A program made the translations under genes and the position numbers. This document shows, in pieces, positions 144 to 17,900 of a DNA stretch of 23,440 nt. The notes under the pieces are model-generated. The model worked only from the letters and a program-made list of their open reading frames with translations, had not been told where the DNA came from and searched no databases. The DNA comes from a virus: the IMG/VR virus record IMGVR_UViG_3300017991_000398, positions 1 through 23,440 of that record. One strand, written 5' to 3'. How positions within the stretch are numbered: the stretch's first letter is position 1; the number at the start of each line of letters is the position of its first letter.

Positions 144-172
144 GAGACGGCCCCGGTACTGTGGAATATAAT
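144..172 (+). promoter_or_regulatory. Sigma70-type promoter for the plus-strand DUF5681 gene
   Basis: A perfect TATAAT lies at 167-172. The hexamer 17 bp upstream (144-149, GAGACG) matches the -35 consensus at only three of six bases, so the promoter may need an activator or be weak. Transcription would start near 179, leaving a leader of about 24 nt before the AAGGGG ribosome site (191-196) and ATG 203. The -10 is buried in an inverted repeat, which suggests repression. Confidence 0.5.
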
Positions 173-179
173 CTACAGT
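158..179. promoter_or_regulatory. Operator-like inverted repeat, copy 1
   Basis: ACTGTGGA-N6-TCTACAGT, an 8-bp inverted repeat with one mismatch. The perfect -10 hexamer at 167-172 starts inside its spacer and ends in its right arm, so a bound protein would block RNA polymerase. The same TGTGGA-N6-TCTACAGT pattern recurs at 212-231 and 2178-2197 with different spacers. That fits a protein-binding site better than a recombination core, which would keep the spacer. The regulator is not identifiable from this window. Confidence 0.6.
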
Positions 180-202
180 TTCGGCTCGTCAAGGGGCAGG
201 GC

Positions 203-832
203 ATGAGGAAGTGTGGATTTTTTTCTACAGTCCGATATCATGGGGGCATGGCCACGGAAGGCGATCAGGACGGCTACCTCATGCCGGAGGTTGGCGAAGC
301 CGAGCAAGCTCGACGGCGTGCCGCGCGGGAGCGCTCCCTGTCGAACCTCAAGCCTTTCGAGCCTGGGCAGTCCGGGAATCCAGCAGGCCGCCGGACAGCA
401 GGCGCGACCGTCACGGAAGAGCTACACAGGCTCATGCACGTGCGTGCCGATGGTCCGGCCTTCACGCTGGCCGAGATCAAGGTGATAGCTGAGGATCCAG
501 GGCAGGGCGTGGCCACGGTCGTGGCGGCGCGTCAAATCCTCGCCGCGTGCCAGGATGGCGAGCGCTTCTCCGTTGACCGCCTGGGCATCGCGCGGAAGAC
601 CGGCACGGATCCCGAGCCGGGCAGGGCGGCCGACCGCATCATGGATCGCACGGAAGGCAAGCCCATCGCGCGGCTGGCCGTGGCGAACGTGCGGGATCCT
701 GCTGAGATCCAGGACGAGCTCGCTGCACTCCTCCAGGCTGAGCCTGGGCTCGCTCGTCAGCTCGTCCAGCTCATGCCGGAGTACGCCCTGGCGGCGGCTG
801 AGCATGACGAAGCCGGGAAGACTACAGACTGA
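203..832 (+). CDS. DUF5681-type phage protein, possible small terminase-like subunit
   Basis: 209 aa, the only credible plus-strand gene in the window. With ATG 203 as start, the DUF5681 signature (FEPGQSGNPAGR) lies at about residues 52-63, and a RIMDRTEGKP motif that often follows in this family is in the second half. DUF5681 proteins occur in phages and integrated elements, sometimes next to terminase genes, and are suspected DNA-binding or small-terminase-like proteins; the function is not settled. I chose ATG 203 because AAGGGG sits 6 nt upstream and the predicted transcription start is near 179. GTG 161 would lie upstream of that start. ATG 248 is possible but has a poor ribosome site. 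The gene points towards the minus-strand late genes, which is odd for a packaging subunit and leaves a regulatory role open. Confidence 0.65.
   Translation: MRKCGFFSTVRYHGGMATEGDQDGYLMPEVGEAEQARRRAARERSLSNLKPFEPGQSGNPAGRRTAGATVTEELHRLMHVRADGPAFTLAEIKVIAEDPGQGVATVVAARQILAACQDGERFSVDRLGIARKTGTDPEPGRAADRIMDRTEGKPIARLAVANVRDPAEIQDELAALLQAEPGLARQLVQLMPEYALAAAEHDEAGKTTD
212..231. promoter_or_regulatory. Operator-like inverted repeat, copy 2
   Basis: TGTGGA-N6-TCTACAGT with an all-T spacer, 46 bp centre-to-centre spacing downstream of copy 1 judged by coordinates. It lies just inside the reading frame that begins at ATG 203. Two sites flanking a promoter and start region are typical of a repressor that binds cooperatively, though that is inference. 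Confidence 0.5.
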
Positions 833-1592: not shown

Positions 1593-2144
1593 TTAGGGTG
1601 CGTGTTGCCCCTCGACGCCGCGAGACGTCCGCTCGCGGGTCCGCTCATGGAGCGCGGTCATGGCCGCGTCCACGTCCATGATGGCGCCCTGGAGCCGCTG
1701 ATAGGCGTCCTCGTTCGCCTGACACGGGAACTCGCCGCCCTGGAAGCCCTCCAGGCGGTCCAGGACGATCGCGAGCAGCACTTCGTTCGTCAGGCCATTG
1801 ACGCCCTGCTCGCCGATCGGGCCGTCCTGGAAGACGAGCAGATGCTCTCTCTCCGTGCCTTCGTTGTCCTTGAACCTTGCCCGGTACACGGTCGAGGCGC
1901 CGCCACGGCCCGGCGGCATCATGGCCTCCAGGGTGATGTGATTCTTGAGCCCGCCGATCAGGTGCTTCTCGATGAGCCTGGGCTGGGGCGCGGCGGTACC
2001 CGTGGTGTGCACGGCCGTGCCGCTCTCGCCCTGGCCGGGCTGCTCGCCATTCGGGCCTGGAGTCGTCGCCGGGGCTTGCTCGGGTGGCGCCTGGGCGCCG
2101 TCGGTCGCCGCGACGGGTGGCGGTGATTCGTGCTCGGAATCCAT
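1593..2144 (-). CDS. Tad1-like (Acb2/Tad1 domain) putative anti-Thoeris/anti-CBASS sponge
   Basis: 183 aa. Residues 1-55 are Pro/Ala/Gly-rich and probably disordered. Residues about 57-109 look like beta strands. Residues 105-180 carry the pattern I recognise from Tad1-type phage proteins: FQDGP, GVNGLTNE, a DRLEGFQ-G-F-C-N block, then RTRER and RGVEG. Tad1 binds and sequesters cyclic ADP-ribose signals made by Thoeris TIR proteins, and some relatives bind CBASS nucleotides. The ligand residues I recall for cbTad1 (Phe82, Asn92, Arg109, Arg113) map to Phe134, Asn144, Arg168 and Arg172. The Phe-Asn and Arg-Arg spacings fit, but Asn to Arg is 24 residues instead of 17, a one-heptad insertion. 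AGGAG lies about 8 nt before ATG 2144. It is the last gene of the late block, unusual for anti-defence. Family assignment is from memory of motifs, not a search. Confidence 0.65.
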   Translation of the reverse strand: MDSEHESPPPVAATDGAQAPPEQAPATTPGPNGEQPGQGESGTAVHTTGTAAPQPRLIEKHLIGGLKNHITLEAMMPPGRGGASTVYRARFKDNEGTEREHLLVFQDGPIGEQGVNGLTNEVLLAIVLDRLEGFQGGEFPCQANEDAYQRLQGAIMDVDAAMTALHERTRERTSRGVEGQHAP

Positions 2145-2200: not shown

Positions 2201-2218
2201 ACCTTCCGGCCGGAAGGT
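2201..2218. repeat. 18-bp perfect palindrome after the 173-aa gene
   Basis: ACCTTCCGG followed directly by its complement CCGGAAGGT, starting one base past the stop codon on the minus strand. It can fold as a 7-bp stem with a CCGG loop. No T-tract follows, so it is either a weak terminator, an RNA-end stabiliser, or a dimeric protein site adjacent to operator copy 3. Confidence 0.5.
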
Positions 2219-2219
2219 G

Positions 2220-2741
2220 TCAAATCACCTTGCCCTCGACGGCGCAGAGCTCGGGATTCGTCCCGGCGGCGGCCGTCTTCACGCCGACGATAACCTGATC
2301 GCAGCCGTCCAGGTCGAAGCTGTTCGCATCCTCGTCAACGTCGCTGAACTTGTCGGTGCCGTCCTCCACGTCGGTGGCCGCATCGCTCAGCGTCAGGTCG
2401 ATGTTCCCAGACTTGTTGCGCAAACGCTGCCAGCCGCCATCATCGGAGTGCCGGCCGAAGACCTGGACGACGGGATCGGTGGTGAGCGTGTCGCCGTCGT
2501 CGTAGCGCAGGCGCAGGCGCAGGACCGTGCCCGCTTTGATCTTCTTGAGGATGTGCGCGCCCGCGTCCGTGATCTGCGTGTCGGGGTTGGTGATGTCGGA
2601 CCCGGCGTTGTCGGCCGCATCCACGCTGCCCTCGTCGCGTAGGTCAACCCAATCCGACGCGATGTTGGACGGGCAGACGACGCGCGAGAGATCGAGCCTG
2701 CGGAAGAGCTCGCTTCCGTCGAGTGCTGCTCCAAGTGCCAT
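2220..2741 (-). CDS. Hypothetical acidic protein, 173 aa, probably virion or head-associated
   Basis: I do not recognise the family. The protein is Asp-rich, with DDGD and several D-rich turns, alternating short hydrophobic strands (VLRLRLRY, VVQVFGRH, QVIVGVK) and no transmembrane segment or long helix, so an all-beta fold is likely. This composition is common in phage decoration or fibre-type structural proteins, but that is inference. The start ATG 2741 has AAGGAG about 8 nt upstream and begins 12 nt after the Bbp19-like gene, so the two are co-transcribed. It is followed by an 18-bp palindrome and an operator-like site, then the Tad1-like gene. Confidence 0.7.
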   Translation of the reverse strand: MALGAALDGSELFRRLDLSRVVCPSNIASDWVDLRDEGSVDAADNAGSDITNPDTQITDAGAHILKKIKAGTVLRLRLRYDDGDTLTTDPVVQVFGRHSDDGGWQRLRNKSGNIDLTLSDAATDVEDGTDKFSDVDEDANSFDLDGCDQVIVGVKTAAAGTNPELCAVEGKVI

Positions 2742-2753
2742 GTGCGGTGCTCC

Positions 2754-3080
2754 TTAGACTTGCGAGTAGTGGCGAAGCGGCTCGATCTGCTCGCGCCGAG
2801 CGAGCTGCGCGTACTCGATGAGCTCCTCGGCGCTCATCCCGGCACGCTGGCATTCGCCGATGATGAAGAGCACGACGCTGCGTGCTCCTTCGTTGAAGTG
2901 AACCGTCTCGGGGGGCTGCCCCGGCTGGAGGGTCGGGGAGAAAACGTGGTACTGCCCCATCAGCTCGGCGAGCACGGATTTACCGTCCTCGGATGAGAAG
3001 AGTCGGGCGTACTTCTGGCGCATCGCATCACGCTGGGCGTGCTGCTTGCGGATCGCGTCGTCGGCCGGGTGGTGTTCCAT
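2754..3080 (-). CDS. Bbp19-like phage protein
   Basis: 108 aa. Residues 25-48 (ARLFSSEDGKSVLAELMGQY) and 62-75 (FNEGARSVVLFI) match the pattern of the Bbp19 family named after Bordetella phage BPP-1: an aromatic segment, a DG turn, a helix, then an NEG-R-VVL helix. The function is unknown, but members usually sit beside portal and head genes, as here. The protein is mostly helical and has no signal peptide. It starts 11 nt after the portal stop codon with AGGA about 9 nt before the ATG, so translation is probably coupled to the portal. Relation to the family is recognised by eye. Confidence 0.7.
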   Translation of the reverse strand: MEHHPADDAIRKQHAQRDAMRQKYARLFSSEDGKSVLAELMGQYHVFSPTLQPGQPPETVHFNEGARSVVLFIIGECQRAGMSAEELIEYAQLARREQIEPLRHYSQV

Positions 3081-3091
3081 CGGTCAAGTCC

Positions 3092-4702
3092 TCATGCGGC
3101 GGGCGCGCCGATCTTGTCGATCGCCGTCGCCGCGTCCTTCGCGGCAGCGGCCGCGTCTCGGGCATCGAGAAGCGTCTGCTCTGTGGCGGCCTTCTCCTGC
3201 CTCTGGCGCCGAATCTCCTGGACCATGCGGAGCGGGGTGAGGGTCTTGGGGTCGGTCCCGTGCATCCCGAAGATCGCGCGGAAGGTGTAGTCCGCGTCCA
3301 GGTTGTCCAGCACTTCCGGCCGTGCCTGGGCGATGACCGCGATGTCGGCGAGTGCCGACCGGATCGAAACCGTCTCGTTGGCGCGCATCGACTGCGCGAG
3401 CGGCGACGTGTATTGGGGCTCGATCCGTCGGCCGACGAGCTGCTCCGGCGGGGTCGGGAACTTTCCGTGCCGGAGCATCCAATGGAAGACTCGCGAGATC
3501 AGCGGCGTCAACCACTCGGCGTAAAGGCGCGCGAGCACGGGCGACGCCTGGAGCAAGCCCTGTTGGCGCCGGGTGATGATCTCCTCGGCCGTCATGCGAT
3601 CCCGCTCGGGGAGCTTGAGGCGATCGAGGAAGAAGATCTTCTCCACGAACTGCTGGAAAGCCTGCACGAACTCGAAGCCGATCGGGGCGTTGATCCCGGT
3701 CTGCACCGGCGTGACGCGATTGTGGTCGCCGCCCTTGTAGTAGATCAGCGAGCCCGGCGCCGTGCGGATCGGGCCTTCCACTCCGGCGGGCACGTTGAGC
3801 GGCGGCCGGAGTGCCAGCTCGCCGGAGACCAGCAAGTCGTACATCATCACGTTGAGGGTCTTCACGGCGTCGATCGCGTGCATGCCCGGCCCGCGCCCGT
3901 AGTTCTCGCCGGGCGCCTTGCTCCAGCGGACGATGAGCATCGGCCAGCGATCGAAGCCGCCCTCGCTGAGCACGGCCGCCTCCTTCTGGAGCACGTAGAC
4001 ACTGGCGATCGGCTTGTTGATCCCCGTGCGGCGCGACGGGTCGTAGCTCTCGCGCCGATAGATCGCGTGCACGATGCCGAACTTCCGCGCCGCCTGCTTC
4101 GGGTCGCCCGCCGCGCGCTTCACGTCCACGGGCAGCTCGGCCTTGGGCCAGCGTCGGGCGATCTCGTCGGCGCGGAGCTCGAAGGCGCGGTACGCCTGCT
4201 GGATCGTGCCGTCGTCGTCCTCGACGAAGTAGAGCTCGCTCAGCGGGTTGCCGACGAAGCGCAGATTCGTGGCCTTCTCCACGATCCGCACGCCGCCCGT
4301 GCCGAAGCCGCACAGATCCAGGTAGAGCTCGGAGCTCGCCATCGGAAAGCCGGTTGCCGGTGAGGCGAGGTAGGTAAGCATGCGCGTCGTGCACTCGTAG
4401 AGAAAGGCGTTGACCTGCTGGTCCCTGTCCTCCAGCTCCGGCGACCAGAGCAGGAACCAGCGCGTAGCCGGGTTGTTCAAGAGACCATGTACCGCAGCGG
4501 CGAGCGACTCGTTTGCGTCTACGGCCGTCGGATCGTAGATCTGCCTGCGCCGCCGTGCGCCGGGAGTCCGTTTGACGGTAAAGTCGCGGGTCGGCACGAT
4601 CAGATCCGCAACGTCCTGCCAGTGGGAATCCCAATTCGACCTGTCAGTCCGTGCGCTGTCGAATCGGTTGAGGATCATCTGTCCGAGTGGCTTCGTAGGC
4701 AT
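3092..4702 (-). CDS. Portal protein, T7 gp8-type head-to-tail connector
   Basis: 536 aa, the same length as T7 gp8. Portals of this class form the dodecameric ring at the capsid vertex through which DNA is packaged and ejected and to which the adaptor ring binds. Recognisable pieces are the N-terminal W-D-V-A-DLIVPTRDF segment (about residues 24-42), the SLAAAVHGLLNNPATRWF helix region (about 66-84), a SSELYLDLCGFGTGG segment and the RDRMTAEEI motif in the clip/stem region. The C-terminus is Ala/Lys-rich and probably disordered. The start ATG 4702 has GGAAGG upstream. In T7 the portal precedes the scaffold and capsid genes; here it lies downstream of the large terminase and behind an unrecognised 203-aa gene, with Bbp19-like and 173-aa genes after it. 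Confidence 0.93.
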   Translation of the reverse strand: MPTKPLGQMILNRFDSARTDRSNWDSHWQDVADLIVPTRDFTVKRTPGARRRRQIYDPTAVDANESLAAAVHGLLNNPATRWFLLWSPELEDRDQQVNAFLYECTTRMLTYLASPATGFPMASSELYLDLCGFGTGGVRIVEKATNLRFVGNPLSELYFVEDDDGTIQQAYRAFELRADEIARRWPKAELPVDVKRAAGDPKQAARKFGIVHAIYRRESYDPSRRTGINKPIASVYVLQKEAAVLSEGGFDRWPMLIVRWSKAPGENYGRGPGMHAIDAVKTLNVMMYDLLVSGELALRPPLNVPAGVEGPIRTAPGSLIYYKGGDHNRVTPVQTGINAPIGFEFVQAFQQFVEKIFFLDRLKLPERDRMTAEEIITRRQQGLLQASPVLARLYAEWLTPLISRVFHWMLRHGKFPTPPEQLVGRRIEPQYTSPLAQSMRANETVSIRSALADIAVIAQARPEVLDNLDADYTFRAIFGMHGTDPKTLTPLRMVQEIRRQRQEKAATEQTLLDARDAAAAAKDAATAIDKIGAPAA

Positions 4703-8751: not shown

Positions 8752-11700
8752 TTAGTTGGGCAAGCCTGCGTCGGCCGCCGGTTCGTCTTCGATGATGCCC
8801 GCCTTCTCCATGAGCTGTCGGTTCTTCACCAGCTCGCGGGCCATGCGCACGGCGGGGACGAAGCCCACGCCCTTGTATTGGCCGATCGCCTCGGCAAGAT
8901 CGAGCATCGCATCCCAGAACGCCGTGGTGCTCCAGGAGTCGGCGGTGATCGCGTCGCGCAGCTTGAAGCTCGACTGCATGAGCTCTTCGACGAGCCCGGT
9001 CGCGGGGGAGAGCTCCAGGCCGTAGCTGTGCTGCTCCAGGCCGGTGGCCTTCTGGGCGATCCAGGATGCCACGTCGCCGAGATAGAGGTTGCCCGCCGTC
9101 GCGTCGATCATGCGCTTCGACCAGCGCTCGTACCATTCGTCGTCGTAGTCCTTGCCGAGCAGCGCGCCGAAGAGCTCGTAGGCGGCGGTGATGAACATCG
9201 ACGTGCCGATCATCGTCGCCGCGATGTTCCAGGATTGGAGTGCGACGTTGCGGGGGCTCGGATCGCGTCGCATGTTCATGGCCGCCCGGTAGGCGTTGTT
9301 GACGTTCGCGTTGCGCGGGGCGTGGAGGAGCGTCAGGCCACGCACGCCCGCGCTCCCGCGCGCCTCGATGGCCATCCCCGCGAGGTTGATCGTGTCGAAG
9401 ACGGGCTGGGTGCGATTGATCGTCTTCTCGGCGAGTGCGGCGACGGCCGCGTAGTAGGCATCGCCCTGGAGCGCCGCGCCGTGGTCGTGGCTGATCTTGA
9501 GCTCGGCTGCCCTCCAAATGACCCGGATGGCGACGGTATCCATCGCGCGGATCATGGCCATCATCCACTCACCGCTGGGCCGGAAGCCCAGGAACTTCGG
9601 CGACTTGCCGAGCGTCTCGCTCATCAGCCTGATTGCCGACTGCTCCAGGCGATCGCGGACCATCGGGCTGTAGGTGCGCATGCGCTGGGTCACGCCGGGG
9701 CTCAGCGCGCTGGTCAAGAGCGCCCGGATGAGGTACGGCTCGGAAATCTCGCTGCGAGCCGCGATGAGCGAGCCGACTTGGTAGAGCGCAACGCGCGGGT
9801 TGAGTCCGAGAAAGGCGGGGGCCACTCGATCGAGCAGCGGATTGATGACGCTGGAAAACGGACCCTGCCGGATCTGGCCGCCCAGCGACTCGCGGGCCAT
9901 CTCGTTGAGGTGCGCCTCGAAGTAGCGGATCGCGGCGCCGCCGTAGGTGTTGCTCAGCGCAGCGCGAAGGTGGGGGTGCGCGAGTGCGCGCTGGGCCGTG
10001 GTCATCGCGGGCTCCAGCTCGCTGAGGGATGCGACGTACCATGACAGGTTGTTGAACTCGGCGAAGATCCCCTGGATCTCGATGGCGAGCTTCCGCTCCT
10101 CCGTGCGCTCATGGGCGATGTTGAGCTCGCGGACGGCCCGGCCGACGTAGTTGCCGGAGTCGATGCCCGCCTTCGGCTCGCGCGTGCGCACGCGATGGCG
10201 GGGCCAGTGGTTCTCGGGGAAGGTGATGTCGTAGCCGAGCTGGTGGGCTGCCCATTGGGCGATCGCCCGCTTGTGGATCGTGTTGTTGTATTCCATCAGG
10301 CGGGTGACGATCACGTGCTCCTGGTCGGTGAGCTGGTCCATGATCGTCTCGATGTCGGAGTGCGTGAGCTCGATCGTCACGCCCGTTGCCCAGCCGGGCA
10401 GTCGAATGTGCGTCCCCTCGAACTCGATGAGATCTCGGGTGCGCGAATCTCGCAGCGTTGCCACGATGCCCATGAGCTCGTCGGACGTGACGCGCAGCGT
10501 TCGCTCGCCGCTGAGCTCGATCGTGCGCGTCTCGGCGCGGGTCATGCCGCGCTGGACGGCCGGGCCGGAGCGGTTGAAGAACTTGTGATAGATCGCCTGG
10601 AAGCGGTTGTGTTGCCCGGCGAGCGTCCGGCTCATGCGCGCGAGGGTTCGGCTGCCGAGCACAAAGCCTGCCTCCTGGACGGCCGCGTGCAGCACGTCGA
10701 TCGCGTGGTGGTAGCGGCCGAGGCGGGAGCGGTGCCCCTGGTTGAGATCTCCGTAGAAGATCTGATGCAGGAGCGTGTCGTCCCCTCCGCTCAGGAAGTC
10801 GGCGAAGGTGTCGGGCTTGAGCTCGGCGGTGCGGCTCAGGGGGATCGCCAGCGGGCTGAGGCGCGTTACGCGCTGGATGGTGCCCGTGATGTCGATCGGG
10901 CGCACCCCGCCGCGCGTCTCCAGCACTTCGGCGGCGGCCGTCGCCGCGAGCTGGTCGAGCTGGCGCCGCTCGGCGCCCCTAATCACGCGGTTGACCATGT
11001 GATTGAGCGCGAGGAAGTGCTCGACCATATCGGCCATCTGCTCGGCCTCTTCCGTCGTGAGCTCGGCGATCGGCTTGAGGCTCAGCCGGGCAAGCTCGCG
11101 GCGCAGGGCGATGGGGATCACGCTGTCGGGGTTCTCGACGAGGAAGTCGGCGATCGCCTGGAGGGCGTCGCGGCGCTTGCCGCTCAGCGCCTTGCGCATG
11201 ACGTCGCCCGTGAGCTCGTCGATCATCGCCTGATACTCGGGCCGGAGCTTGGCCTTGCCCGCCGCGCGGAGCACGCGATCGAGGCGCTTCACGGCGACGT
11301 TGTGCTCGTATGCCTGGAGTACCTCATGCACCTTTCTGATCGACTTCGCGAGACGGCCCGGCGTCTCGGCATCCCGGATGTTCGTCAGGAGCTTGCCGCG
11401 CTGGCTGACGGGGAGCAGCTCGCGCACGATCTGGGTGAGCTGCTTCCGGATGAGCTGGCGCCCGGCCTTGTCGTCGCGGTGCTGACGCTGGAGATCTCGG
11501 CGCAGCTCGATGAGCTGGGTGCGGGCAAGGTCGCCCCGCGCGCGGTCGGCCGCGTGGGCCGCGCGACGCTGGGCGGCGAGGCTCAGGTGCAGCGCCTCGC
11601 TCTCCGTGATGGTCTTCGGCTGCTTCGGCCCGCGCAGCGCTTCGCGGATCCTGCCCTTGGCCGTCTGCCGCTTCGCGTAGGCGACGCGGCGCTCGACGCT

Positions 11701-14700
11701 GTTGCGCAGGTCGGTCGCAGCGAGCTCGAACCGGGCCGGGTCGATCTTTCCTGTCTCCGGATCGACCGATGCGGTGATGAGCTTCTGGACGTTGCGTGCG
11801 ATCCGCTTCTCGTACTTGCGTAGGTGCGGGCGGCGCTCCAGCCACGCGCGCACCATGTTGCGGATCCCCCGTGCGCCGCGCACGCCGTACTTCATCGCCT
11901 TCGCGGTGAGATAGATCGTCGCGTCGGCGATCATCGGGATCACGATCGACTCGCCCAGCACGGTGGCGTGCAGGCCGCGCGGCGGTCCCTTGCGCAGCCG
12001 GGCCGCCGCGTCGGCGGCGTACTGGTCGGCCTTGGTTTCGATCCAATCGAGTAGATCTCCGGATTCGTCGGCATCGAGCGCCGCCTGGACCTGGGCGCGC
12101 CGCTCGCGGTCGGCGCGATCTACCGGCGACGGCTCCGGTTCCGTGATGAGCGTCTCCTGCGCGCCGGTGACGGGGCCGCCGAACTCCTCGCCGATCAACC
12201 CCGGCTGGGTGACGGTGACGGTGCGCGTCGGCTCCTCGGCGCGCATCTCGTCGATCGCCGCCTCGGCCCGCCCGGCTTCCGCATCGTCCCGCGCCGTCTC
12301 CTCGGCCAGCGCCTCGCGCGAGATCTCGGTGAGCTGGAGCGTGCCCCGGTCGATGGGGATCCTCGCGATCGACTCGGCGATGATGTTCGCGTTGAGACCT
12401 TCCCAGCTTGTGAGCATGAGCTCGCCGTACTCGTTGGGCACAATCTCGAACTCGATGCCTTCGACCTGGAAGGTGGCGCCGACGGGGAGCTCGGAGGGGT
12501 CGTACCACTCGCGCTCGCGCGTGGAATACTGCCGACGCGCGCGGGCCGATTCCTCGCGGCTCATGTCGGCCGTCACGTGATCCTCCTCGGCCGTGAGACG
12601 CGCCTCGATGAGAAATGCGGCGAGGTACTGCTCCGGCTCGGCGAGCTCGGGCTGATCGAGGATGCGCTGCCGCGCGTTACGGTGCTTGGCGCGCTCGCCG
12701 CCCGCCGCTTCCTCCAGGATCGCGTCGATCATCGCGTCGCCGACCATCTCGCGCGCGTAGCTGTCGTCTTCCGTGACCTGGATGACGCTGCGAATCCGCA
12801 TCTGCTCGGCCGGAGTGAACCGCGTCAGGGCGTCGGGGTGGACGGCGAAGCCTTCCGTGTCGCCGACGCCCGGCCGGGTGCCCGATGCGGTGTCGTTCTC
12901 CAGCGCGATGCGCTCGTTGGCCGACTCTAGGAGATCGCCTCCGGTGTAGTCGATCCAGGATTGGACGAGCCCCTCTTGGGCTGTCCAGTTGACGGGCTCA
13001 AGGGTGATGGGCTCGGGGAGTGTTCCCGGTTGGCGACCTGTCGGCTCCCCACGGTCGGGCGGCTGCGCAGCGCGTTCCACCGCTCCTGGCGGCTCTGGGG
13101 CCTGGACGGCTTCTTCTTCGAGCTGGGCGAGGGCTTCGTGCTGTGCGGATTCCAGCTCCCCCTCGTAGGCACGTTGCTCGTCTTCTTCGGCATGGCGCTG
13201 TCCCTCGATGTCGATCAGGGTCCGGAGGATGGCCTCGCCGGTCTCGACCTGCGCGTCGCTGAGCGGCTCGCGCGTCTCCGGGTCGAGCCGGTTCGTGAGG
13301 ATCCATTGTAGCTCGCCGATGGATTCGGTGATCTCGGCCGCCGTCATCAGATCCAGCTCGTCGGGCAGGCTCCAGGTCGGACCCGATGGCTGGAGATCAG
13401 GGTACTCAGCGAGCACGTGTGCGGGAACTTCTTCGCCGCGCTGCATCGCTTCTCTGATCGCCTGTCGGTGGCGAATGCTCAGATCGGCCACCGGGACGCG
13501 GGGCATTTCGTCGCCGCGCTCCACGGCTCGGATGATGCCCCATGGATCGGCCGCCCGCTCCTCCTCGTCGGCGAGACGGTCGGCGAAGATCTCGGCCAGA
13601 ATCGGCCGGGCTTCCTGGAGATCCTCGGCCGTGGTCGGGTTGAGCGTGCTCCGGAGCTCGTCGTAGGTCATTTCCCATACGTGTTCGGGCTTCGGTCGGG
13701 CAGTCTCTTCCGTTGCGGCCGCCTCCGGCTCGATTCCAGGCTCAGCCGTCGCCTGGGCCGCCTGGGTGGGCGTTGGCGCCGGAGGGCCGTAGGTCTGGAC
13801 CTCGGCGCCTCGGGCGGCTCTCAGGGCATTCCTGGCGATCTCAGCATCCCACGTCGTCATGCGGTGGTCGTAGACGAGCTCCAGGCGGCCGGTGATCCGG
13901 CTCCGGCGGGTGCGGGGGGAGATCATCACGGGGCCGAGCAGCAGCAGCCCGCCGACCGCGCCGCCGCCCGCCGCTTCGCCGACGCCGGAGAAGAGCGGCC
14001 GCTTCGGGTCGATCGACTCGGTGCTGAAGAAGCCCTGCTTGGCGATCGCGTTCTGGATGACCTGCGTGATGCCCTCCTCCAGCGCCTCCACGCCCGTGCC
14101 CGTGAAGATCTGTCCGGCGGCCGTCACCATCGCCCCACGGTTGCCGCGCAGGAAAGCCTCGCCGAGCGACTTCTTCAGCGCGGGGGCCACCCTGCCGCCC
14201 AGATACTCCAGGCCGAGATACTCGGCCACGAACTCGGCCGCCGCGTGGCCGAGCCCGATCTCGACCGCCTCGGCCGCGTCCGGCGTGAAGCCCTGGGCTT
14301 CCATGATCGTGCGGTACTCATCCGCGCCGCCGCCAAACGCCTGGAAGCCGTAGTAGAGCGCGATCGCCGCCCGGCCGCCGCTCGTCGCGGTACCGCCGAC
14401 GCCTGCCATCGAGGGCACGATCTGACCGGCCACGCGCCCGGTCCAGACTGACGGCCCGCCCTTGCGCACGTAGTAGCCGCCGGATTCGTGCTCGAACTGG
14501 CGGCGCACGGTCTCTCCGGCGACGCGGTAGTCCTCGGCCAGATCCTCCCGGCCCGCGTAGTCGAAGATCGCGGCCATGCCGTTGGCGATGTTCTCGTAGG
14601 GGATGATGATCGAGCCTTCGCCGAAGCCCGCGGCCGCGTGGTAGACCTGGCCGACCACGGGGATGGAGCTCAAGCGTTCGGCGGTCGGGTCCGTGAGATC

Positions 14701-14928
14701 CGGAAGATCGTAGATGCGCGGATCGTAGATCGTGTTGCCGCTGCGCCGTGCAGCTTCGGCACCGAGCGCCTGGGTTCGGTCGGCCTCGAAGAGCTGGGCC
14801 AAGAGCGAGCCTTCCGGGCGCGTCTGTACCGTCGTCGTGCTGCGCAGGGAAAGACCGGGGCGGCTGTCGAGCGCTTCGCTATCCTGCGCCATGAGATCTC
14901 GGAGGAGCGTACTGTCGGCTCGCGTCAT
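8752..14928 (-). CDS. Giant internal virion/ejection protein, T7 gp16-like, 2058 aa
   Basis: 2058 aa against 1318 in T7 gp16. Position between the gp15-like and fibre genes supports an ejection protein that leaves the capsid and forms a conduit through the cell envelope. A Gly/Ala-rich region (about residues 90-340) contains the VEALEEGITQVIQ and GGGAVGGLLLLG pattern seen in large phage ejection and polyvalent-type proteins. A hydrophobic stretch lies at 318-336 and another near the C-terminus (IAATMIGTSMFITAAYELFG). A long Arg/Glu-rich helical region and several acidic stretches lie between. I see no lytic transglycosylase motif at the N-terminus, unlike T7 gp16. ATG 14928 overlaps the upstream stop by ATGA; the frame stays open to 15891, but that part lies inside the gp15-like gene and reads as shadow. 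Confidence 0.8.
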   Translation of the reverse strand: MTRADSTLLRDLMAQDSEALDSRPGLSLRSTTTVQTRPEGSLLAQLFEADRTQALGAEAARRSGNTIYDPRIYDLPDLTDPTAERLSSIPVVGQVYHAAAGFGEGSIIIPYENIANGMAAIFDYAGREDLAEDYRVAGETVRRQFEHESGGYYVRKGGPSVWTGRVAGQIVPSMAGVGGTATSGGRAAIALYYGFQAFGGGADEYRTIMEAQGFTPDAAEAVEIGLGHAAAEFVAEYLGLEYLGGRVAPALKKSLGEAFLRGNRGAMVTAAGQIFTGTGVEALEEGITQVIQNAIAKQGFFSTESIDPKRPLFSGVGEAAGGGAVGGLLLLGPVMISPRTRRSRITGRLELVYDHRMTTWDAEIARNALRAARGAEVQTYGPPAPTPTQAAQATAEPGIEPEAAATEETARPKPEHVWEMTYDELRSTLNPTTAEDLQEARPILAEIFADRLADEEERAADPWGIIRAVERGDEMPRVPVADLSIRHRQAIREAMQRGEEVPAHVLAEYPDLQPSGPTWSLPDELDLMTAAEITESIGELQWILTNRLDPETREPLSDAQVETGEAILRTLIDIEGQRHAEEDEQRAYEGELESAQHEALAQLEEEAVQAPEPPGAVERAAQPPDRGEPTGRQPGTLPEPITLEPVNWTAQEGLVQSWIDYTGGDLLESANERIALENDTASGTRPGVGDTEGFAVHPDALTRFTPAEQMRIRSVIQVTEDDSYAREMVGDAMIDAILEEAAGGERAKHRNARQRILDQPELAEPEQYLAAFLIEARLTAEEDHVTADMSREESARARRQYSTREREWYDPSELPVGATFQVEGIEFEIVPNEYGELMLTSWEGLNANIIAESIARIPIDRGTLQLTEISREALAEETARDDAEAGRAEAAIDEMRAEEPTRTVTVTQPGLIGEEFGGPVTGAQETLITEPEPSPVDRADRERRAQVQAALDADESGDLLDWIETKADQYAADAAARLRKGPPRGLHATVLGESIVIPMIADATIYLTAKAMKYGVRGARGIRNMVRAWLERRPHLRKYEKRIARNVQKLITASVDPETGKIDPARFELAATDLRNSVERRVAYAKRQTAKGRIREALRGPKQPKTITESEALHLSLAAQRRAAHAADRARGDLARTQLIELRRDLQRQHRDDKAGRQLIRKQLTQIVRELLPVSQRGKLLTNIRDAETPGRLAKSIRKVHEVLQAYEHNVAVKRLDRVLRAAGKAKLRPEYQAMIDELTGDVMRKALSGKRRDALQAIADFLVENPDSVIPIALRRELARLSLKPIAELTTEEAEQMADMVEHFLALNHMVNRVIRGAERRQLDQLAATAAAEVLETRGGVRPIDITGTIQRVTRLSPLAIPLSRTAELKPDTFADFLSGGDDTLLHQIFYGDLNQGHRSRLGRYHHAIDVLHAAVQEAGFVLGSRTLARMSRTLAGQHNRFQAIYHKFFNRSGPAVQRGMTRAETRTIELSGERTLRVTSDELMGIVATLRDSRTRDLIEFEGTHIRLPGWATGVTIELTHSDIETIMDQLTDQEHVIVTRLMEYNNTIHKRAIAQWAAHQLGYDITFPENHWPRHRVRTREPKAGIDSGNYVGRAVRELNIAHERTEERKLAIEIQGIFAEFNNLSWYVASLSELEPAMTTAQRALAHPHLRAALSNTYGGAAIRYFEAHLNEMARESLGGQIRQGPFSSVINPLLDRVAPAFLGLNPRVALYQVGSLIAARSEISEPYLIRALLTSALSPGVTQRMRTYSPMVRDRLEQSAIRLMSETLGKSPKFLGFRPSGEWMMAMIRAMDTVAIRVIWRAAELKISHDHGAALQGDAYYAAVAALAEKTINRTQPVFDTINLAGMAIEARGSAGVRGLTLLHAPRNANVNNAYRAAMNMRRDPSPRNVALQSWNIAATMIGTSMFITAAYELFGALLGKDYDDEWYERWSKRMIDATAGNLYLGDVASWIAQKATGLEQHSYGLELSPATGLVEELMQSSFKLRDAITADSWSTTAFWDAMLDLAEAIGQYKGVGFVPAVRMARELVKNRQLMEKAGIIEDEPAADAGLPN

Positions 14929-17900
14929 GGGCTCTGCTCCCGCATGAGCTTCGTCTTCGCGTTCTTGTCCATGTAGACGGAAGGCCAGCCGTGCTCGATC
15001 AGCGCTTGCCGTTCCACGTGCTGCCAGAGGAACTCCTGGTGCTGCGGGTTCTTCTTGTCCGGCATCACGTCGAATCGCGCGATGAACTCCATTTCTGCGC
15101 GTGCCTTCATCTTGGCCGTCATGCTCGCGTTGGGATACGGCGCGTAGCGCAGATCGTACTCTTCCAGGGAGTGCACGCCGGTCTCCTGGAAGTTGGCGTA
15201 GTCGAAGGCCGCATTGAAGCGGAAGTCGTCTTCGGTCATCGAGCCGTTGAGAATGGCTTCGTGCACGGCGAAGCCCGGAGAATCGGGGAGATAGATCTGG
15301 TAGAGCTTCGTGCGCGGGTCGAACTCCAGGACGCCCGCGAGCTCGCCGACCTGGGCCGTGCTGTCCTGGTCGATGCGGTGGGTGACGATCGGGGTGATGA
15401 CGTTCGCGCCCATGCGGCGGCTCCGGTGCACTTGGATCTTGGCGAGATCTCGCCGCGTCCAGGTTCCTGACTTCTCGGAGAACTGCAAAGCCGCATCGTG
15501 CAGCGCCGACTCGTATGCGGCGGTGAGCGAGGCTTGCCCGGCCGCCCGCTCGCGCGGGGTCTGCTCGGCGTCGAAGCGGAAATTGAACGGCGCGAGCTCG
15601 ACGGATTCGTCGCCGTCGTACTGCTTGACGGTGACGCGGAGGTAGTGGTCTTTGATCCACTGTTTCGCGAAGGACACGCCGCCGTTGAGCGCCGTCGTCG
15701 CGTCCGGGTTGTCGGGGAGCGTGCGGAGCAGTCCGAACATATAGGCCGAGCCGAAGTCCTCCTTCACGGACAGCCGGAGGGTGTCGGGCTGGTAGTTCGC
15801 GTTGGCGAGCAGCGTCTCGACGCTGAGCGGCGGCTTGTATTTGCTCGAAGTCGGGGCCAGCCCGTTGCCGTAGAACTGCTCGGTTGCCCATTCGAGCTGA
15901 ACCTCAGTTGCCTGCTGCATCGTGTTGATGGCCGCGTCGTACTCGGGCGTGCCGGGGACCATGCGGTGCGTGATGTCGAAGGCGATCGCCGCGCGGCCGG
16001 TCTTGTCGGCGCCCCTCGCGATGTTGCGGGCCATCACGCTGCCGCCGTGCTCGTTGATAAGCTCCAGGGTGCGCACGCCCTGGGCGACGTTGCGGGTCTG
16101 CTCGGCGAAGTCGCGATTGATGTCTTTGATCTGCGCATCGCGGAGCGGGATTCCGGCGACGAGCTGGCGCGTGATGAGCTCGTCGCGGGGCACGCCTTCG
16201 CTGCCCGCCCACTGGAGAAACTCGTTCCATGATCGGTCGTCGGTGGGCAGCGTATGGGCATCGACCGCGCCGTGGAGCAGCCACGAGCGCAGCCGGTTGG
16301 CGCCGTCGCGGGCCTCGCGCATCACTGCCTCCTCGCGGAGCAGCGCGGTGCGGCTCTGCTCGACGAGCAGCGTCGCGCGTTCGTCGCCGCCGACCTGGAT
16401 CGCCCTGGAGAGCGCGAGCCACTTCTCGCGGTCTCCCGTCGCGGCCGCCGCCTGGAGCGGCTTCTCCAGGAGCAGCATTCTGATCTCGGCTTCGGTCGCC
16501 GTGCGAGGTTCGCCGGTCTCTCCGCGCACGAAGAGCCCCGGCGAGATTTGCAGCTGGCGCGCCCGTGTGCCGACGAGCTCCTCCACGGCGGCCTGGGGCG
16601 GCTTGCCTTGGTACTGCGTGAAGAGATCCCGAAGCGCCTGCCGGGTCTCCAGGAAGGCCACGTCGGTGATGCCCGCGATGTCCTCGTCGGCCTTCTGCTG
16701 CCAGTGTTCCCGCTTCATGCGGATCTCGTCGCCGGTGAGGTACTTCGCGGCGAGGCTCGACCGGCTGGTGAAGTAACCTTCGGCCGCCACCGGGTCGGTG
16801 GCGCCGAGCACTTCGCCCCATTCCCTGGCGATGCGCTGCTTGTAGTCCAGGAGCATCACGGCGGCCTGGGCCTCGTTGAGCATGTCGGGCGTCAAGCCCT
16901 CGATGAGCGCCGCATAGCGTTCAATCGCGAGCTGAGGCGCTTCGGAGAATGCGAGGAAGTCTTCGCCCGTGAGGGTGCGAAGATCCTGCACGGCCTCTTC
17001 CTCGAAGCGCGAAAGCTCGGCGAGCGCCTCGGGCTTGTCGCCCTCGCGCAGCCATTCTCGGACCTGGGCTTCTCGGGCGATGCTGCGCGGTGTCGGGGCA
17101 AGCGGGCCGCCGGGGCGGTCGTAGGCCGGGTTGGCCTGGAGCTCCTCGATCCCGACGGCGACGATGCGCTCCAGCTCCTCGGCCGGGTACTCCGTGGACG
17201 GGCTGAGCTGCATCGCCTCGATGTCGGTACGGATCCGGTTGAAGGACCGGATGAGCGCCTCGTCCTGCTGCTTCTCCAGGCGGCGGCGGGCCAGCTCTCG
17301 CTTGCGATCGCGCTCGTTCCCGTCGATGAAGCGCGTTGCCAGCGGATCATCGAGGAACTCCATTGCGCCCTTGGGATCGTTGCGGAGCAGCGCGTGGAAG
17401 TGCTCGCGCGTCGCCTGGAGCCCGTAGTTCTGCTCCAGGATCTTGAGCTGCTCTGTGGTGTAGGCGGTGTGCAAGCCCTCGCGCGAGTTGGCCATCTGCT
17501 CATCGAGCACGGTCTGGAGCCTCACGGCGCCGCGTGCGTTGGCGATCTCCTGGAGCCGAGTCTCCCAGAGCTCGGCATCATCGGCGCGAAACTTCTGATT
17601 CATGCGCGAGACGTTGAAGCGCTGCAAGTCCAGGCGGGTGCGCATGCTGAAATCGTCGAGCCGCGTCCGCACTGCGGTGCGCACGTACTCGTTGGTGATC
17701 GTGCCCGTCTCCTCGCCGAGCGTGTTGCGCGCATCGTCGAAGATCTCCATCGTCTGCGCCGGATCCGCTTCGCGGGCGCGGAGCTCAGCGGCGCCGATCT
17801 CCGTGAGGATGTGCTGATTCCAGTCATTGATCGCCTGGGCCTGCTGGAGCTTGGCCTGGGCGACGCCGAAATCGGTGAGCACGTCGCCGAGCTGTCGGCC

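Follow-up and report, generated by a model that had tools for sequence, protein, structure and literature searches.

A divergent Tad1-family protein with a disordered N-terminus and a lengthened last helix at the end of a phage structural block

The last gene of the late structural block in a viral DNA record raises two questions: does it encode a Tad1-family protein, as its motifs had suggested, and, if so, what is such a gene doing at the end of a set of virion genes? The window, i.e., the whole stretch of DNA analysed, is a linear viral record of 23,440 bases and is probably a fragment. The gene and its parts are as follows, with the basis of each assignment in brackets:

1593-2144, minus strand: Tad1-family protein of 183 aa, last gene of the late structural block (homology searches, fold, context)
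1980-2144, minus strand: disordered, acidic, Pro/Ala-rich N-terminal extension, codons 1-55 (composition, structure model)
1596-1979, minus strand: Tad1 domain, codons 56-183, with four strands and two long helices (alignment, structure model, fold comparison)
1674-1694, minus strand: seven-residue insertion LQGAIMD in the last helix, codons 151-157 (homolog alignment, model, control model)

The gene, here called tad1, starts at ATG 2144, with AGGAG six bases ahead of it. Within the N-terminal extension there is one alternative start codon, GTG45, and it has no good ribosome-binding site. An antisense ORF at 1590-2126 was set aside because the codon bias of the neighbouring genes is absent from it.

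Similarity to Tad1 is significant and spans the whole domain in PHROG, phmmer, tblastn and profile searches. PHROG 2428 matches residues 81-181 with an E value of 1.6e-25, and SBSphiJ7 Tad1, which is experimentally established, is 42.7% identical to the window protein by tblastn. The best match among solved structures is phiKZ gp184 (8y6v_I; phmmer E 8.5e-11, 1.9e-35 by profile), and phmmer also finds CmTad1 (E 6.4e-10) and cbTad1 (E 6e-5). With a profile built from 75 homologs, drawn from unrelated phages and prophages, the solved Tad1 chains are found at E 4.7e-30 to 1.9e-35. Of the 50 columns that are conserved to 80% or more in the homolog alignment, the window protein retains 42, including all of the invariant ones (FQ.GP..E.G.NG, RL..FQ.G, N and RT..R..GVEG); the near-invariant H85 is replaced by Thr. 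The motifs named in the original prediction are real and occur in the stated order: FQDGP (105-109), GVNGLTNE (114-121), RLEGFQ.G.F.C..N (130-144), RTRER (168-172) and RGVEG (175-179).

A scan of IMG/VR with the single window protein gave no close relative, and none of the Pfam, NCBIfam and PADLOC models matches it. An HMM search had been proposed as a check on the family call; its outcome was favorable for PHROG 2428 and for the 75-homolog profile but not for Pfam PF24729 (Acb2_Tad1_hairpin), whose curated cut-off the window protein misses. The same cut-off is missed by six of the seven other homologs tested, phiKZ gp184 among them; across all eight, SBSphiJ7 Tad1 alone passes (the others tested include those of L003, L004, L014, L015, L140 and L178, handles of records in our comparison). 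Thus, the PF24729 model is narrow, and Pfam annotation with it will overlook most of the Tad1 family members tested here.

The single-chain structure model of the window protein has a mean pLDDT of 80; residues 51-150 are at about 90, and the model is less certain beyond residue 150, with values of 66-73. Its elements follow the Tad1 order: strands 56-58, 70-74, 86-92 and 98-105, which form an N-terminal antiparallel four-strand sheet, and then two long helices, 120-136 and 142-175. Among the Foldseek matches listed for the model, all 20 of the 20 below E 0.001 are Tad1 chains. Comparison with 7uaw, a structure of Tad1 with gcADPR, by VIA-align gives Z 10.6 and an rmsd of 2.4 Å over 115 residues, and the next non-Tad1 row is at Z 5.5. 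The non-Tad1 rows (Z 5.5 or less) were set aside, as their overlap is mostly limited to the helical hairpin. The predicted fold therefore agrees with that of cbTad1, the comparison that had been suggested for it. An N-terminal β-sheet is the hallmark that separates Tad1 from Acb2 (PMC12043709). Acb2 resembles the window protein in its helical hairpin and in the concept of sponging up nucleotides, but it has no such sheet (PMC12043709) and consists of a short N-terminal helix and two helices, whereas the window model has four strands ahead of its helices, and an Acb2 identity was rejected. With homology resting on several independent results, the window protein is confirmed as a genuine, divergent member of the Tad1 family, its domain complete at residues 56-182; the original call, made from remembered motifs, was right, and sequence, fold and context all agree with it.

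The protein is unusual in two respects. Residues 1-55 are of low complexity (11 Pro, 9 Ala, 7 Thr, 7 Gly and 7 acidic residues, with no Lys or Arg) and have no secondary structure in the model, which bears out the long disordered N-terminus that had been claimed. Apparent N-terminal extensions in four homologs (L153, L155, L172 and L205) were discarded as mis-chosen starts, each with an internal Met just ahead of the domain. Second, the insertion LQGAIMD at residues 151-157, which had not been remarked on before, is absent from all of the 97 other aligned homologs in which it was sought. The second helix (142-175) comprises 34 residues in the window model versus 27 in the L140 homolog, which was modeled as a control; as modeled, the insertion lengthens the last helix by seven residues, or two turns, between N144 and R168/R172.

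This position matters for the predicted pocket. F134, N144, R168 and R172 of the window protein align in the profile alignment with F82, N92, R109 and R113 of cbTad1, which, under a numbering that we also assume, we take to be contacts with gcADPR. The retention of all of these presumed contact residues argues that the predicted ligand binding is still under selection, though the geometry must differ: the insertion sits between N144 and R168/R172, so that pocket residues are displaced by about two helical turns. In the model, such displacement could weaken or alter ligand binding. The lengthened helix amounts to a test of how far the signal pocket may vary with the family contact residues retained. 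Long branches of the tree include the window protein, phiKZ gp184 and orf71 of Lactococcus phage 1706, which, given few columns and open forks, is only a lead.

Annotation by Pfam- and PHROG-type searches places tad1 at the close of the minus-strand block, the position that the original prediction had given it. The order of the block is: major head protein (phrog_3437), a 163-aa protein, tail proteins (phrog_394, phrog_376), GNAT-like internal virion protein (phrog_308), internal virion protein (phrog_418), two very large ORFs, tail fibre, terminase large subunit, a 203-aa protein, portal, Bbp19-like protein, a 173-aa protein and tad1. The nearest genes, including that of the convergent unit, are:

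2220-2741, minus strand: 173-aa protein upstream of tad1, with no function assigned (ORF and domain searches)
2754-3080, minus strand: Bbp19-like phage protein, PF25181 (domain search)
3092-4702, minus strand: portal or head-tail connector, PF12236, E 8e-111 (domain and PHROG searches)
161-832, plus strand: DUF5681 or terminase-small-like gene of the convergent unit, likely start ATG 248 (domain search; arrangement in the neighbour L005)

Where an internal virion protein is expected, the window also has an ORF of 2379 aa (8752-15891, minus strand), with a likely start near 14928 that would leave about 2058 aa; it matches phrog_28077, and a match to virion RNA polymerase is weak (E 4e-4).

The place of tad1 raises the question of whether its product is simply the scaffolding protein of this phage. 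In the podophage relatives L006, L007 and L009 the scaffold comes after the portal and the Bbp19-like protein, an equal relative position, and the scaffolds of L007 and L009 have a low-complexity acidic N-terminus as well. However, proteins in the scaffold position are about 300 aa long, and those scanned, from L140 and L005, belong to a different family, phrog_3742; in L005, which has the arrangement of the window, the scaffold-like gene is on the opposite strand and adjoins the terminase-small-like gene, a location that for this phage would fall beyond the window. The window protein matches Tad1-type PHROGs only, and we rejected a phrog_3742 identity and regard a scaffolding role as very improbable.

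A Tad1 gene was sought at this site in the examined stretches of L005, L006, L007 and L009 and is absent there, so that tad1 of the window is an accessory gene. How often Tad1 genes lie among virion genes can be judged from a wider survey, in which the query was a three-member alignment, an eight-member one being too diverse for searching. This search gave at least 323 relatives in IMG/VR, of which 80 were kept, plus nine in bacterial genomes. Among the 34 records in which the terminase large subunit was located, 15 Tad1 genes share its strand and lie no more than 6 kb upstream; this location, where middle genes give way to late ones, is the usual one. Others are found deeper in structural surroundings: (i) in L140, between a tail protein (phrog_376) and an internal virion protein (phrog_418); (ii) in L145/L214, directly after the scaffold and major head protein; (iii) in L163-165, three genes past a major head protein; and (iv) in L138, next to a gene like phiKZ gp182. 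Tad1 genes thus recur within structural blocks of unrelated phages, and the late place of the window gene is a recurring minority pattern rather than a unique one.

Two further relatives are worth noting. In Burkholderia jumbo phage FLC9, gp131 (L015:5245-6261) joins a cyclophilin-type prolyl isomerase (PF00160, E 2.5e-44) and a C-terminal Tad1 domain in one ORF. Contig L194 has an intact Tad1 gene and, 2 kb upstream, a second, degenerate Tad1-like ORF (L194:5482-6003; E 2.6e-5) in which the latter half of the domain is missing.

Given this setting, the window protein might be a domesticated Tad1 fold, one that became a minor head or assembly protein and lost signal binding. Its place in the structural block, its long branch and the insertion in the very helix that bears the ligand residues are in keeping with such a fate. 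Against it, all invariant residues are retained, including the presumed ligand contacts, related podophages manage without the protein, and in L140 a block of this kind includes an ordinary Tad1, at a different place. We consider domestication improbable.

The DNA around tad1 holds several candidate regulatory elements:

2178-2197, no strand: operator-like site TGTGGATCGAAGTCTACAGT, between the 173-aa gene and tad1 (motif scan)
160-179, no strand: operator-like site upstream of the plus-strand terminase-small-like gene (motif scan)
212-231, no strand: second operator-like copy there, 16 nt ahead of the ATG at 248 (motif scan)
2201-2218, minus strand: perfect palindrome ACCTTCCGGCCGGAAGGT, with a 7-bp stem and 4-nt loop, just past the upstream gene (hairpin scan)
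1518-1545, no strand: terminator-like hairpin, bidirectional, at the end of both convergent units, with z -4.2 for the minus and -3.3 for the plus strand (hairpin scan)

The inverted-repeat motif TGTGGA-N6-TCTACAGT has exactly three copies in the window, one in the 75-base leader of tad1 and two before the terminase-small-like gene; the operator-like site attributed to tad1 is therefore real, and its copy is exact. A window scan with three mismatches allowed gives 5 matches versus 0.47 expected, in a test that is post hoc since the pattern (14 fixed bases, three times in 23 kb) was read off the same data. Three exact copies, each in a leader, are far beyond chance. Among the matches listed, other viral contigs have single, chance-level copies only. 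An operator common to the terminase-small-like gene suggests that tad1 has its own regulation rather than mere membership in the virion block. By this pattern of sites, tad1 may answer to the same putative regulator as the convergent unit and could presumably be switched apart from the virion genes. The palindrome ACCTTCCGGCCGGAAGGT is without a U-tract and would thus be an attenuator or weak terminator at best; the strong terminator-like hairpin at 1518-1545 comes after tad1 and faces the plus-strand unit. Between the convergent units, at 1150-1431, GGGACACAT recurs eight times without mismatch, counting both strands, where 0.08 copies are expected; the array resembles operator, iteron or partition sites and includes a perfect 18-bp palindrome, GGGACACATATGTGTCCC, at 1150-1167.

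In the original prediction, late expression or virion carriage of such an inhibitor would have been a novelty for the family; given a published precedent, this claim is not upheld. phiKZ gp184 is an inner-body interactor whose injection was validated by FLAG western blot in translation-blocked cells (PMC10449902), and it has been named as the phiKZ Tad1, which blocks CBASS and Thoeris (PMC13282480; PMC12043709); structural blocks of L140, L145/L214 and L163-165 contain Tad1 genes as well. Could the window protein likewise travel inside the particle and enter the host together with the DNA, which would place the sponge in the cell ahead of any phage transcription? Its disordered, acidic N-terminal stretch would then serve as an anchor in the head or allow passage through the tail. 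Several observations point this way: (i) phiKZ gp184, a virion protein with validated injection, is likewise a Tad1 with an acidic N-terminal extension. (ii) The Tad1 homolog orf71 of Lactococcus phage 1706 (L004:9866-10219) was deposited as a 'structural protein' despite being encoded among non-structural genes, away from the head and tail genes, which suggests virion proteomics and possibly another Tad1 in virions. (iii) In the window, tad1 is the final gene of the virion block and has the same orientation. However, phages of this type have no known packaging signal, the gp184 extension cannot be aligned with that of the window protein, the relatives in structural blocks (L140, L145, L163) are without an extension, and the operator is common to a gene outside the virion block. 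We regard packaging as possible but doubtful. The more elaborate conjecture that a small podophage packages Tad1 via its disordered tail, injects it with the DNA and re-tunes the signals held through the two-turn longer helix is unlikely; if true, it would mean virion-delivered signal sequestration outside the jumbo phages.

The reading that we favor, and hold with considerable confidence, is that of a divergent but genuine Tad1-family signal sponge, whose gene a BPP-1/T7-like podophage acquired as an accessory at the 3' end of its late operon. Homology, the Tad1 fold, the invariant residues, the last place in the structural block and a leader of its own with an operator-like motif were computed directly; the protein most likely functions by sequestering the TIR-derived signals of Thoeris and the cyclic nucleotide signals of CBASS. 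It would assemble as Tad1 does, into three interlocked dimers, and would bind, without cleaving, gcADPR from Thoeris TIR enzymes and cyclic di- and trinucleotides from CBASS; suicide effectors would stay off until the phage completes its cycle. Expression probably occurs in two ways, by read-through from the late operon and from the regulated leader. The disordered N-terminus would most simply be a flexible tail, which might perhaps also serve in virion packaging. Tad1 acts by stoichiometric binding, so the time and place of its synthesis decide which defence can be stopped. A late-encoded or particle-carried Tad1 poses a testable timing question that phiKZ has opened and that would be easier to address in a small phage.

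The Tad1 family is already known; it is the variant and its setting that merit a bench test. Like the window protein, phiKZ gp184 (8y6v chain I) has a C-terminal Tad1 domain behind an acidic N-terminal extension, but its extension of about 100 residues has an extra segment, versus 55 residues here, and it has no helix insertion; its virion location and injection have been shown, whereas those of the window protein are conjectural. The Tad1 of L140 (IMG/VR contig 2828417763_000003) is 48% identical and is likewise encoded within a podophage structural block of this kind (portal phrog_332, major capsid protein phrog_3437, tail phrog_394 and phrog_376), but it lies between the tail protein and the internal virion proteins and is 133 aa long, without extension or insertion. 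With Tad1 proper (cbTad1, 7uav/7uaw/8smd; CmTad1, 8kbb-8kbd; SBSphiJ7) the window protein shares the fold, the order of elements and the invariant residues; it differs in its 55-residue disordered N-terminus, a last helix longer by seven residues and T85 in place of His, and its gene differs in place, at the end of a structural operon.
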